Both the position numbers and the translations under genes were made by a program. The notes under the pieces are model-generated. The model was not told the origin of the DNA and made no database searches. It was given only the letters and a program-made list of their open reading frames with translations. Positions 10,790 through 20,894 of a stretch of 37,701 bases of DNA are shown one piece after another (the stretch's first letter is position 1; every line of letters begins with the position of its first letter). Origin of the DNA: Desulfobulbaceae bacterium (GTDB lineage Bacteria > Desulfobacterota > Desulfobulbia > Desulfobulbales > Desulfobulbaceae); the NCBI GenBank assembly GCA_019163135.1, contig JAFLKR010000172.1, positions 1 through 37,701 on the forward strand. Direction: 5' to 3'.

Positions 10790-11509
10790 TTATGCTTTTA
10801 CCCCAACATAGATGGAGACGATGCCAAAGGTCATCGGTATTCTGGACACCGTCGTGAACCCCGCCTCGCGCATCATGGCCAGCAGTTCCTCCGGCTCATA
10901 AAAGGCGGCGATCGATGAGGCCAGATATTGATAGGCCTCCTTGTCGCCTGAGATTAATCCGGCTATCAAGGGCAGGACCCGATTGAGATAAAAACTGTAC
11001 AGCGGCTTGATGATCGGGTTGGTCGGCCGGGAAAATTCCAGGATCAGCAATTTGCCGGATGGACGGAGGATGCGGTGCATCTCCTGCAAACCCTGCAGGG
11101 TCCGCGAGAGATTGCGTACCCCGAAGGCCACGGTACAACCCCAGAACGAACCGGTCGGCGCCGGGATGATTTCGCCGTCGCCGCAAACGGGGAAAATACG
11201 TTCCGCGCGCCCGTCTTTGGGCAAGGTCTTGGCTCCGGCCCGGAGCATATCTTCGCAGAAATCAATGGATAGCACCTTACGTTTCGGGGCCTGACGAGCT
11301 AACTCAAGCGACAACGGCAAGGTTCCGGCACAGAGATCCATGACCCATCCTCCGGGAAATTCGCGGAGCAGACGAATGGTCCGCCAGCGCCAATAGCGGT
11401 CGATCTTTAAGGAAAGCAAGGAGTTAAGGAGATCATACCGGCCGCTGATCGAAGAAAATTTCTCCTTCACAAATTTTTTTTTCTCGTCAGGGAGATGCGC
11501 AGTTTCCAT
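10790..11509 (-). CDS. menG: Demethylmenaquinone methyltransferase (UbiE/MenG family)
   Basis: A SAM-dependent C-methyltransferase, 239 residues from ATG 11509 (a TTG one codon upstream is possible). The family pattern is clear: FSSISGRYDLLNSLLSL near 18, DLCAGTLPLSLELARQAP near 58 (motif I), VAFGVRNLSRTLQGLQEMHRILRPSG near 128 with the UbiE signature, and EFSRPTN near 158. Motif I reads DLCAGT instead of the common DVAxGTGD. It catalyses the last step, methylating demethylmenaquinone at the membrane surface. It lies 46 bases after mqnA and one base before ubiX. Confidence 0.93.
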   Translation of the reverse strand: METAHLPDEKKKFVKEKFSSISGRYDLLNSLLSLKIDRYWRWRTIRLLREFPGGWVMDLCAGTLPLSLELARQAPKRKVLSIDFCEDMLRAGAKTLPKDGRAERIFPVCGDGEIIPAPTGSFWGCTVAFGVRNLSRTLQGLQEMHRILRPSGKLLILEFSRPTNPIIKPLYSFYLNRVLPLIAGLISGDKEAYQYLASSIAAFYEPEELLAMMREAGFTTVSRIPMTFGIVSIYVGVKA

Positions 11510-17385: not shown

Positions 17386-19005
17386 ATGGACAATGATAGA
17401 GTGGTAAACATTCTCCAACAAAGGTCAAGCGGAATTCTGCTTCCGGTTTTTTCCCTGCCGGGTCCTTTCGGGATTGGCGACCTCGGTGAACCGGCCAGGC
17501 TCTTCATTGACTTCTTGAAGAAGAGCGGCCAGAGATATTGGCAGATTCTCCCCCTTGGTCCCACCAGCAGGATATTCGGCGACTCTCCTTACATGAGCTA
17601 TTCCACCTTTGCCGGCAGCCCTCTGTTGATCAGCCTTGACCTGCTCATCGAGCAGGGGTTGCTGCAGATAGAGGAGTTGGCCCCGCCTCTCTTTTCGGAA
17701 TACAGCGTCGAGTATCAAAAGGTTGATACCTACAAAAAAGGCATCCTTAAATTGGCCTGGAAACGATTCCAGGCCGGTTCTTCTTCGTCAGGCACCCTCA
17801 AAGCGTTCACCCTAGCCCAGCCTTGGGTTGTCGATTACGGACTTTTTCTAGCCCTCAAAGGCAAATACTCCCAGAAGCCCTGGTATCAATGGCCGTTACC
17901 GTTGCGGCAGCGGCAGCCCGAGGCTTTAAGCCTGGCGACTGCGGAACTCAGCGACCAGATTGATTATTATATTTTTGAGCAGTACCTTTTTTTCAGCCAG
18001 TGGCAACAGTTGCGTTGCTATGCCAACGGGTTGGGAATCCAGCTCATCGGTGACCTGCCCATTTATGTCGCCCTCGACAGTGTTGATGTCTGGGCGAATC
18101 AACAAATTTTTCAACTGGACGCAAAGCGTTGCGAGCCTGCCCTGGTGGCTGGCGTGCCTCCTGATTATTTCAGTGCCGACGGTCAGCGTTGGGGGAATCC
18201 CCTTTACTGCTGGAACACGGACCATCCCAAAGTGAAAGGCCAATTGTGGGATTGGTGGGAACAACGACTGCGACTAAATTTCACTTTGGTCGACACCCTG
18301 CGAATCGATCATTTCCGCGGTTTCGAATCGTACTGGGCAATTCCGGCCGCAGAGAAGACAGCAGTGAACGGACAATGGCAAAAGGGCCCCGGGCTTCCGT
18401 TTTTCAAGGAAATGGACAGACGACTCGACGGCATGAGTATCATCGCGGAGGATTTGGGCCACCTCACCCCAGAAGTCGAAGCGCTGCGCATGGAACTGGG
18501 ATACCCTGGCATGAAAATTCTGCTGTTTGCCTTCGACGGCATGGTGGACAACAGTTATCTTCCCTATAATCTGGGAAAAAACTGCGTTGTCTACACTGGC
18601 ACCCATGATAACGATACGGCGGTCGGCTGGTATCTCAGTCCAGCGGTCGATTCGGCGAGCAAACAACAGGCCAAACGGTTTGCCAACCGGCAAGATGATG
18701 ATGCCGGATCCTTCCATCAGGATCTGATCTATCTAGCCCTGTCCTCGGTTGCAAATCTGGCGATACTGCCCATGCAGGATGTCCTGGGCTTCGGTAACGA
18801 CTGCCGCATAAATGTGCCCGGCACCACCCTCAACAACTGGCAATGGCGGTGTGCCCTGCGTTTCATCAATAACGATCTTGCCGCCTGGTTGCGGGAAATC
18901 TCTCTGCTGTTCGGTCGGGTACCGCTGATCTGTCCTGATAGCAATGCCGCAGCTTTTTTGCCGGAACAATCCGCTGCCGCAGCACCTCCGAGGCCTTTAC
19001 TGTAA
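17386..19005 (+). CDS. malQ: 4-alpha-glucanotransferase (amylomaltase)
   Basis: MalQ moves alpha-1,4-glucan segments between maltodextrins, in glycogen or maltose metabolism in the cytoplasm. The 539-residue GH77 protein shows SSGILLPVFSLPGPFGIGDLG at the start, WQILPLGPT near 47, DSPYMSYSTFAGSPLLISL near 60, DTLRIDHFRGFESYWAIP near 304 (catalytic Asp), IIAEDLGHLTPEV near 349 (acid/base Glu) and YTGTHDNDT near 404. Length is typical of the bacterial short type. CAGGAGGATC precedes ATG 17386. Transcribed divergently from the sigma gene across an AT-rich 198-base region. The C-terminus ends with an alanine-rich tail. Confidence 0.96.
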   Translation: MDNDRVVNILQQRSSGILLPVFSLPGPFGIGDLGEPARLFIDFLKKSGQRYWQILPLGPTSRIFGDSPYMSYSTFAGSPLLISLDLLIEQGLLQIEELAPPLFSEYSVEYQKVDTYKKGILKLAWKRFQAGSSSSGTLKAFTLAQPWVVDYGLFLALKGKYSQKPWYQWPLPLRQRQPEALSLATAELSDQIDYYIFEQYLFFSQWQQLRCYANGLGIQLIGDLPIYVALDSVDVWANQQIFQLDAKRCEPALVAGVPPDYFSADGQRWGNPLYCWNTDHPKVKGQLWDWWEQRLRLNFTLVDTLRIDHFRGFESYWAIPAAEKTAVNGQWQKGPGLPFFKEMDRRLDGMSIIAEDLGHLTPEVEALRMELGYPGMKILLFAFDGMVDNSYLPYNLGKNCVVYTGTHDNDTAVGWYLSPAVDSASKQQAKRFANRQDDDAGSFHQDLIYLALSSVANLAILPMQDVLGFGNDCRINVPGTTLNNWQWRCALRFINNDLAAWLREISLLFGRVPLICPDSNAAAFLPEQSAAAAPPRPLL

Positions 19006-19405
19006 GACAAGGGCCGAGGCTTTCAATTTATTAAAAAAGTGCAGGCATCCATTGTAATTGCGACGGCAGGCCTCCCGCAGGGTTCTTCCCCCTATTTCGC
19101 AGGACAGCGCCTCCAGCGAAATAGGGGCGACGCAGATTGTCGCTCCAGGGAATCAAGCCTGCCGCCGCATAGCCCCCCCCGTACTTACAACGAAGACAAT
19201 CCTCTGCCGACCAAGGAAAAAGCAAGGCCTTGCTCCTTGCGCAGATGGAATCTGTCGAGTGATACTTTTTTAAGGATAATCCCTATTCTTATTTGCTTTC
19301 CCAGCGCCCTTTCAAGTATAGTTTTAAATTATAAAACTACTGCCGAACGTGCTTACGAAAGGGGGGCTTTCAGCCGTCCGTAATCATTAACCCAGGAGGA
19401 CTGCC
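19006..19405. other. 400-base intergenic region with two hairpins
   Basis: No coding frame with family resemblance was found. It holds a 12-bp perfect inverted repeat (19089-19127, listed separately) and a weak 8-bp AT-rich hairpin TAGTTTTA/TAAAACTA at 19319-19339. The promoter of the selenoprotein gene should lie here, but I could not fix -35/-10 boxes with confidence. AGGAGGA at 19394-19400 is its Shine-Dalgarno. Confidence 0.5.
19089..19127. repeat. 12-bp inverted repeat with 15-base loop
   Basis: CCCCTATTTCGC (19089-19100) and GCGAAATAGGGG (19116-19127) are perfectly complementary. No T-run follows on either strand. It lies about 85 bases after malQ, so it could stabilise the 3' end of its transcript or be a dispersed repeat; one window cannot tell. 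Confidence 0.55.
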
Positions 19406-20725
19406 GTGAACAAAAAAATTCTGCAATTGATCCCGCTTTGCCTGATGCTGGCCCTGTTAGCCGGTGGCTGTGCGGAGACCAAGCAAGCCGAGGTCGGTGG
19501 TACGCCAGCAGCCAAGGAAGCTGTGCAACAGGAACCAACCGTTTACGAAGGTGAGATAACCGGCGTTTCGGAACGGGCAAAATCGATTTCCATTGCCGTC
19601 GGCAAGGGGGATCAAGCCAAGTCGATGCTTGTCAAGTTCGATGACAAGACTAAAGGGGTCAACCAGGCCAAAAAGGGGATCGCCGCCAAAATCATCTATG
19701 AGATGCGCGGCACTGAAGCCTATGCCACCGACATCCAGTTGAAACTCGCCAAACTGCCGGCCGGGGTCACCGAGATCAAAACCACAGAGCTGCAAAAACT
19801 GACCAGTGAGAAGGCCCCGCTCTTCCTGGTGGATTCCAGGCCGTTGGCCCGCTATAACCAGTCGCATCTGCCCGGCGCCCATGCCATCCCCGTGCCGTTG
19901 CTGGAAGAAAAACAAGCGGCGGTACTGCCCAAGAACAAAGATCTCCCCTTGGTATTCTATTGTGGAGGGCCTACCTGAGGCATGTCAACTGCCTCCGCCG
20001 GTCTGGCGAAGAAAATCGGTTATACCAACATTCGCGTCTATCTTGATGGTGAACCTGCTTGGTCCAAAGCCAATCTGCCCACCTATTCCACCAATGAATT
20101 CATCAAAAATGGCAATGTCGTCCTGATTGACATTCGGCCGAGCAAAAAGGCTATTGCCGGAAGGATCAAGGGGGCCTACAGCGTTCCCTACGACACCCTG
20201 GAAAATACCCTTGATGATGTGCCCCGCAACGCCCCTCTCGTCCTCTATGGCGACAAAGAGGTCATGGATGCCGTTGTGGCCGTACGCGACCAGGAATTCA
20301 ACTTTGTCTCCCTGGTTGAAGGGGGGTATCAGGGCTGGGTGAAGTCCGGCGGTGAGATCGAGAAAGGGCCAATCTTCAATACGGAAATTAAATGGGTCCG
20401 TAAACTCGGTAAAGGCGAGGTTTCCGTGGCCGACTTCCGCAAGGCTGTGGCGGGAGAAGAAAAGAATACCGTGGTCGTCGACGCCCGTACTAAAGAAGAA
20501 GTGGCCGAGTTGGGCATTTTTAAGAATACGATCAATATTCCTTTGGATGAAATTCCTTCACGGATGAATGAATTACCCAAGGATAAGAAGATCTACGTCC
20601 ACTGCTCCACCGGTGCCCGAGCCGATATGGCTTATAGCGAACTGGTCAAGCACGGCTTTGATGTAAAATTTTTACTGCTGAACATTAAAGATGCGGAGTG
20701 CGATTGCGAAATTATCAAGCCCTAA
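19406..20725 (+). CDS. Three-domain rhodanese lipoprotein, probable selenoprotein (in-frame TGA = Sec191)
   Basis: Two open frames, 19406-19978 and 19982-20725, are in the same phase, separated only by TGA-GGC. Read through, they give 439 residues with no break in the fold. GTG start with AGGAGGA upstream; lipoprotein signal ending LAGGC (C22). An N-terminal beta-rich region (45-115) is followed by rhodanese 1 (about 120-222), with VDSRPLARYNQSHLPGAHAI and an active loop C186-G-G-P-T-U191, where relatives have CGGPTC. Rhodanese 2 (about 228-315) lacks the catalytic Cys (VLYGDKE). Rhodanese 3 (about 338-425) has the loop HCSTGARA with C400. The tail ends with C432 and C434. Rhodaneses move sulfane sulfur; as an exported, membrane-anchored protein it would act in the periplasm. 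A SECIS-like hairpin follows the TGA. A nonsense mutation is the main alternative. Confidence 0.85.
19976..20011 (+). promoter_or_regulatory. UGA codon and bacterial SECIS-like element
   Basis: TGA is at 19976-19978. Starting 17 bases later, CGCC (19996-19999), loop GGTCT (20000-20004) and GGCG (20005-20008) form a hairpin, extended below a C/A mismatch by CU/AG. The loop GGUCU is the apical loop of the E. coli fdhF SECIS, whose two guanines contact SelB. There are 21 bases between the UGA and the loop; in fdhF it is 18 from memory. The element lies inside the coding sequence, as bacterial SECIS elements do. Confidence 0.8.
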
Positions 20726-20855: not shown

Positions 20856-20894
20856 GCCCGACAGACTCTTAAGATTCTGTCGGGCATTTTTTTT
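20856..20894 (+). terminator. Rho-independent terminator of the selenoprotein gene
   Basis: GCCCGACAGA (20856-20865) pairs perfectly with TCTGTCGGGC (20876-20885) and is followed by A and eight T. It lies 130 bases after the stop. CGGGC at 20841-20845 could pair instead with GCCCG at 20856-20860, giving a competing hairpin. Read leftward the T-run is only three bases, so it works mainly rightward. Confidence 0.92.

Follow-up and report, generated by a model that had tools for sequence, protein, structure and literature searches.

The 37,701-nt stretch of DNA analysed here (the window) carries a gene that we read, with a probability of about 80%, as encoding a lipid-anchored selenoprotein with three rhodanese domains, decoded through a SECIS element and acting on sulfane sulfur. 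Within this reading the individual parts are of different strength. Comparison of the homologous sequences makes it nearly certain that this is a selenoprotein gene and not a pseudogene, with selenocysteine (Sec) decoded at codon 191, and the reaction proposed for the protein is put forward more tentatively. The host genome is a 3.64 Mb draft in 217 contigs, and Desulfobulbus is among its closest named relatives as judged by this protein.

The frame opens with GTG at 19406, closes with TAA at 20723-20725 and holds a single in-frame TGA (19976-19978); with this TGA read as U, the product has 439 residues and one U, at position 191. An earlier note on this DNA had proposed that two same-phase open reading frames are one gene, and the translation does run on across the TGA without interruption, as FYCGGPT-U-GMSTASAGLAKKIGY. 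It had also expected automatic annotation to split the gene, and a listing of open reading frames in which TGA is a stop cuts it into 19406-19978 and 19982-20725. The features of the gene and its surroundings are collected in Table 1. The terminator-like hairpin downstream is absent from the output of the pattern scan, and its loop exceeds that scan's loop limit of 8. A promoter scan of the window gave no match on the + strand, and an Rfam scan of the window gave no match.

Table 1. Positions in the window of the Sec rhodanese gene, its encoded domains and the associated signals
Feature	Position	Strand	Details and basis
Shine-Dalgarno AGGAGG	19394..19399	+	6 nt upstream of the GTG start; sequence reading
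Whole selenoprotein gene	19406..20725	+	439 codons plus TAA, TGA read as Sec at codon 191; homologues
Signal peptide with lipobox LAGG-C22 (predicted lipid-anchored Cys)	19406..19471	+	By eye; Cys in 92/114 rows
N-terminal five-stranded beta domain, residues 44-112	19535..19741	+	Predicted structure
Rhodanese domain 1, residues 119-230, loop YCGGPTUGMS	19760..20095	+	Pfam PF00581 127-221; structure match Z up to 17.5
Cys186, ordinary rhodanese loop cysteine (loop position 1)	19961..19963	+	Alignment
TGA codon of Sec191	19976..19978	+	Loop position 6, directly before helix 193-203; alignment and predicted structure
SECIS hairpin CGCC-GGUCU-GGCG	19996..20008	+	Conservation, resampling, fold
Rhodanese domain 2, residues 227-325, no catalytic Cys (VLYGD)	20084..20380	+	Pfam, alignment
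Rhodanese domain 3, residues 331-424, canonical loop HC400STGAR	20396..20677	+	Pfam, alignment
Terminator-like hairpin GCCCGACAGA...TCTGTCGGGC, then T run	20856..20894	+	By eye

The codon at position 191 was followed through the homologues, where the earlier note had expected Sec to stand at a cysteine position of relatives. Among 129 aligned rows, the site holds U in 94, C in 27 and neither in 8 (5 paralogues and 3 fragments). The 121 rows with U or C reduce to 104 distinct 69-nt windows once identical, incomplete or N-containing ones are removed, and these divide into 85 with TGA and 19 with TGC or TGT, in agreement with that expectation. The five distant paralogues with neither Cys nor TGA (L037b, L052, L054, L055 and L056) have another residue or a shorter loop there; L052, L054, L055 and L056 have a shorter first loop that lacks the first Cys and keeps a Cys before the conserved helix (e.g., FYGVGGCLS). 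Other distant rhodanese paralogues, L043, L044 and L047-L050, carry a TGA of their own at the same site (YCAGATUALS, YCRGFTUGMSPHF), and both types occur in genome G019, the source of L043. Distant members have UVLS or UALS in place of UGMS.

Beyond what the earlier note had claimed, many relatives carry a member of this family, and it extends to other families within the phylum. The named loci used were the best 80 of 149, and the titles among these include Desulfobulbus, Desulfogranum, Desulfofustis, Desulfocapsa and Desulfosediminicola. In a set of 55 genomes, the TGA form occurs at the site in 26, with the own genome and distant paralogues counted, and others have Cys; an even draw of 296 genomes from the same phylum gave a match at 1e-40 in 30; and 18 of 23 newly fetched loci (L143-L165) have TGA. 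A tree of 130 rows, computed with the Sec position masked, requires at least 11 changes between the Sec and Cys states, and midpoint rooting, used for direction only, gives 12 Cys-only groups. This tree was built by a quick method, with support below 80% at 33 of its 123 inner branches, and some genomes stand twice, once per collection, both in it and in the alignment of 114 rows used below.

The hairpin described in the earlier note, with 21 bases between the TGA and its loop, was recovered with that spacing: CGCC at 19996-19999, the loop GGUCU at 20000-20004 and GGCG at 20005-20008, so that it begins 17 nt past the TGA. It is present in the predicted fold at a modest energy (z -2.0, 11 of 200 shuffles equally good), and the case that it exceeds chance is made by its conservation, since the folding energy alone is unimpressive. 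The complete set of four pairs is present in 84 of the 85 distinct TGA windows, compared with 4 of the 19 Cys windows, while resampling of synonymous codons produced four pairs in 9.5 +/- 2.9 of 85 windows, with a maximum of 18 over 1000 trials. The one exception among the TGA windows is the distant paralogue L050, with two of four pairs in this register. Paired changes on both sides of the stem were found at three of its four pairs (C-G to T-A, G-C to A-T and C-G to A-T). In the TGA members, the majority base at the third position reaches 0.95-0.96 across the five hairpin codons, against 0.32-0.58 for the same codons in Cys members; in 11 of 14 other codons of the TGA members it is 0.29-0.61, and the remaining three stand at 0.74, 0.93 and 0.98, the last being ATG. 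The same stem register, with G as the second loop base, is present in all 18 distant TGA members, which belong to other families within the phylum; a few of these members are near-identical to one another. It is strongly supported, then, that the hairpin 17 nt downstream of the TGA is a bacterial SECIS element. Two Cys members, L121 and L131, retain three of the four pairs together with a GGTCA or GGTCT loop, a residual hairpin that looks like the mark of a recent Sec loss.

These data bear directly on whether the TGA could be a true stop, either as a nonsense mutation in a pseudogene or as the boundary between two translationally coupled genes. In favour of a stop, an ATG 3 nt past the TGA does open the downstream frame, a listing that treats TGA as a stop gives two open reading frames, and frames break elsewhere in the gene in 2 of the best 80 named loci. 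Against a stop, TGA stands at the same codon in the 85 distinct windows and Cys in 19, with full-length frames on both sides; termination at this codon would cut a single rhodanese loop in two, and the selected hairpin lies 3′ of the TGA. At the position of the downstream ATG, a non-start codon (other than ATG, GTG, TTG or CTG) is found in 2 of the 85 windows and in 14 of the 18 distant TGA members, so that the ATG is not conserved as a start. We regard a true stop as scarcely credible and retain the selenoprotein reading. The earlier note had named frame decay in close relatives as evidence that would count against it, and the outcome does not refute the reading: the 89% identical relative L010 keeps the frame, the TGA and the hairpin, and the frame is broken in L082 (Cys form, near residue 77) and in L133 (TGA form, within residues 123-183), both draft assemblies. 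Decay or error thus occurs in single strains and is not the rule. Three further explanations were dropped: reading of TGA as Trp, as homologues have Cys; a frameshift, as the frame is continuous; and an assembly error, as the 89% identical relative agrees.

The genes for Sec decoding, whose absence the earlier note would have counted against the reading, are all present in the window's own genome, with selA (616.9 bits), selB (360.8 bits) and selD (375.5 bits) over their cut-offs and a canonical tRNA-Sec of 69.3 bits with a TCA anticodon and a G discriminator. SelB and Sec-tRNA-Sec would read the TGA at codon 191 owing to the downstream hairpin. Among the 26 TGA-form genomes of the 55-genome set, selB exceeds the cut-off in 23, and the remaining three are draft assemblies that are 85-97% complete; selA is matched in all 26, but also in 22 of the other 29, and is not discriminating. 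The selD match of the own genome (L061, C46:13868-14809) is over the cut-off and has an in-frame TGA, so that SelD is itself probably a selenoprotein.

The own genome also holds a second tRNA-Sec-like gene with a UCA anticodon and a U discriminator (L059:1501-1597, equivalent to C18:35337-35429 of the genome), and an open reading frame that we named by eye as LysR-type lies 3′ of it. This tRNA was matched in 11 of the 55 genomes, the own genome included, all of them in the window's genus; 10 copies were fetched, every one of which ARAGORN called tRNA-Sec with TCA, and the discriminator, read by eye, is U in 10 of 10. The available text of one paper describes selC* tRNA-Cys with U73, sometimes with a UCA anticodon, in anaerobes (PMC7609411). 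The second tRNA looks like a selC*-type tRNA-Cys, and it is possible that it puts Cys at UGA and that the own genome makes a mixed product. The full alternative, that in the own genome this U73 tRNA inserts Cys at the UGA, always or part of the time, in place of Sec, draws on its presence in the genus, on its discriminator and on the precedent in PMC7609411, as far as that source was available. The tRNA is no explanation for the TGA of the family, because among the 26 TGA genomes it is matched in four (G000, G003, G007 and G019), and the 22 others have retained the TGA all the same, and the hairpin almost without exception. The own genome has the canonical tRNA-Sec with its G discriminator, selA and selD, and a profile search of that genome found no second selB over the cut-off. 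In the own genome's copy of the second tRNA, moreover, the eighth acceptor pair reads by eye as a C-A mismatch, and energy minimisation does not fold this copy into a cloverleaf. The available text of a further paper holds G73 to be essential for tRNA-Sec (PMC5330540). We consider Cys at this codon very unlikely and hold to Sec. Two full-length cysteinyl-tRNA synthetase (CysRS) matches over the cut-off were found in the genome, at C6:30499-31944 (L180, 554.1 bits) and C2:20139-21527 (L181, 401.8 bits); the weaker of them might serve the second tRNA, though it is aligned over the whole model and no loss of the anticodon domain was seen.

The protein is predicted from its signal peptide and lipobox, read by eye, to be exported and lipid-anchored, as the earlier note had supposed. 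PF00581 matches it in three stretches (E 1.7e-38, 131.6 bits against a gathering score of 22.2). The claim of two further rhodanese domains behind the Sec domain therefore stood as to their number, with the correction that the first of the two lacks the catalytic Cys: it occupies the catalytic column in 0 of 114 rows for domain 2 and in 112 of 114 for domain 3. A structural match links domain 3 to the rhodanese domain of a persulfide reductase that depends on NADH (3nt6, Z 15.1). Ordinary rhodanese loops have six residues, of which the catalytic Cys comes first. The Cys/Sec pair that the earlier note had placed in the loop of domain 1 could be assigned accordingly: in C186-G-G-P-T-U191 (CX4U), Cys186 stands where the rhodanese cysteine normally does, and Sec occupies the sixth and last loop position, before helix 193-203 of the predicted structure. 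Over the 114 rows, residues 186 and 191 are C/U in 88, C/C in 25 and G/U in 1, and in this alignment the redox residue at 191 is thus more constant than that at 186, by one row.

In a search of NCBIfam with the window protein, no model exceeded its cut-off; nine general models for rhodaneses were matched by every one of the 27 aligned members. The nearest selenoprotein models both align to domain 1. NF041203 (rhodanese_LYCAU, CxU), with 126 positions, scores 64.9 bits against a cut-off of 115, and the window protein differs from it in having CX4U and three domains. The rhodanese part of NF045694 (TsoB, rhodanese/DsbD fusion-like, UxxxxU) has the same six-residue spacing, but the match covers residues 122-231 only, at 50.2 bits against a cut-off of 805, and the window protein has Cys for the first Sec. 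Foldseek matches to Escherichia coli YnjE and Chlorobium EanB (2wlr and 6ktv), each a chain of several rhodanese domains, extend over some 400 columns, but identity is 14-17% and the whole-chain TM is weak at about 0.2.

The earlier note had said that rhodanese-type selenoproteins are listed in surveys, and reviews, as far as their text was available, do list several forms. In the accessible part of a 2026 review (PMC13188914), rhodanese-like selenoprotein form 1 (UxxS, WP_010941598.1) is credited to Zhang and Gladyshev 2005; it and the window protein are alike in PF00581, one Sec and UxxS (U191-G-M-S), as compared by the listed motif alone. Since this listed form fits, we file the window protein under the rhodanese selenoproteins already known. 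Two other proteins can be likened to it by description, from the available parts of the papers. RS06465, in the Psr operon of Desulfurivibrio dismutans (PMC12142623), likewise has three PF00581 domains and is an exported, predicted lipoprotein, but it has different gene neighbours, and that part of the paper mentions no selenocysteine. ExtH of Geobacter sulfurreducens (PMC6148476, PMC5877670) is likewise a rhodanese-like lipoprotein, of 49.0 kDa, but it sits in the ext cluster, where the predicted selenoprotein is ExtKL according to the text available. A table row of deep-Sep gives 43, apparently selenoprotein genes, for Desulfosediminicola flagellatus, and the TGA member L097 of that species may well be among them already. 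No description of a Sec rhodanese with this domain layout was found in the literature searched, whose coverage leaves out many journals. Nor was the link to thiosulfate set out below found described in this literature. Gene callers that treat TGA as a stop split the gene, and no NCBIfam model exceeds its cut-off, so that sulfate reducers probably have a conserved periplasmic selenoprotein that is on record as two fragments.

The link to thiosulfate comes from an ortholog in Desulfolithobacter dissulfuricans GF1 (G027), 52% identical and located at 1,559,698-1,560,996. According to the accessible text of a proteome study of this organism, a rhodanese-like protein, GF1_13980, was detected only under thiosulfate disproportionation and not in sulfate-reducing cells (PMC9751629). 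This protein was mapped by the position of its locus tag, some of the calibrating open reading frames being named by eye. The tags are evenly spaced, with dsrC (GF1_24490) found at 2,720 kb versus 2,717 kb expected for 3,242 genes, and tag 13980 is accordingly placed at 1,551 kb on the even-gene scale or at 1,553 kb from dsrC alone. Interpolation between a TRAP-permease-like open reading frame at 1,228-1,230 kb (tags 10880-10900) and a NiFe-hydrogenase-like one (tags 18090-18100) puts it at about 1,556 or about 1,564 kb, depending on the hydrogenase frame chosen (1,991 or 2,010 kb). Overall, GF1_13980 maps to between 1,551 and 1,565 kb, and the sole rhodanese-like open reading frames found in 1,513-1,608 kb are the two halves of the Sec gene, which makes it very likely that GF1_13980 is one half, either one, of the ortholog. 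If this link is true, the existing proteome of sulfur disproportionation already contains peptides of the selenoprotein under the name of a fragment, and the influence of selenium supply on sulfur disproportionation can be put to the test. In Desulfurivibrio alkaliphilus, two periplasmic rhodanese genes are described as very highly expressed in the part of PMC13047784 that was available.

For the reaction itself, we propose that Sec191 would attack periplasmic sulfane sulfur, in thiosulfate, polysulfide or a persulfide, and that Cys186 would resolve the resulting Se-S bond to a selenenylsulfide, which a partner would re-reduce. Domain 3 may take up or hand on sulfane sulfur as a persulfide on Cys400, domain 2 would be a Cys-less spacer, and the protein would have a role in the metabolism of inorganic sulfur, for example in thiosulfate disproportionation. 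A periplasmic sulfane-sulfur reductase or transferase with Sec191/Cys186/Cys400 chemistry, the order of its steps being inferred, is a tentative assignment to which we give slightly less than even odds. The protein might instead be a selenoprotein that acts as a thiol-disulfide (selenenylsulfide) oxidoreductase on protein or small-molecule thiols and not on sulfane sulfur, as the CX4U/CX4C pair, which lies where a helix begins, resembles redox pairs and the TsoB family (UxxxxU) shares the spacing. The three rhodanese domains, the canonical CSTGAR site in domain 3 and the very probable expression under thiosulfate disproportionation argue against such an activity, which we judge unlikely without dismissing it. 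We still prefer the sulfane-sulfur enzyme. A broader proposal, which we think quite improbable, would combine this with the second tRNA: a selenoenzyme of inorganic sulfur disproportionation whose Sec/Cys site handles periplasmic thiosulfate or polysulfide, and whose UGA would be filled by Sec, or by selC*-type Cys when selenium is short, so that one codon would give both forms of the enzyme in the window's genus.

Gene neighbourhoods were compared across 63 named loci longer than 9 kb and the window, and sulfur genes were never constant neighbours. We propose no operon link with the neighbours. The recurring neighbours, a purE-like gene (24 loci) and a purD-like gene (26 loci), both named by eye, an ABC-F-type gene (16 loci) and a TetR regulator (26 loci), look like gene order kept by inheritance. 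Upstream in eight loci lies a molybdopterin oxidoreductase paired with an Fe-S protein, and L109 is the only one of these in which no opposite-strand genes intervene.
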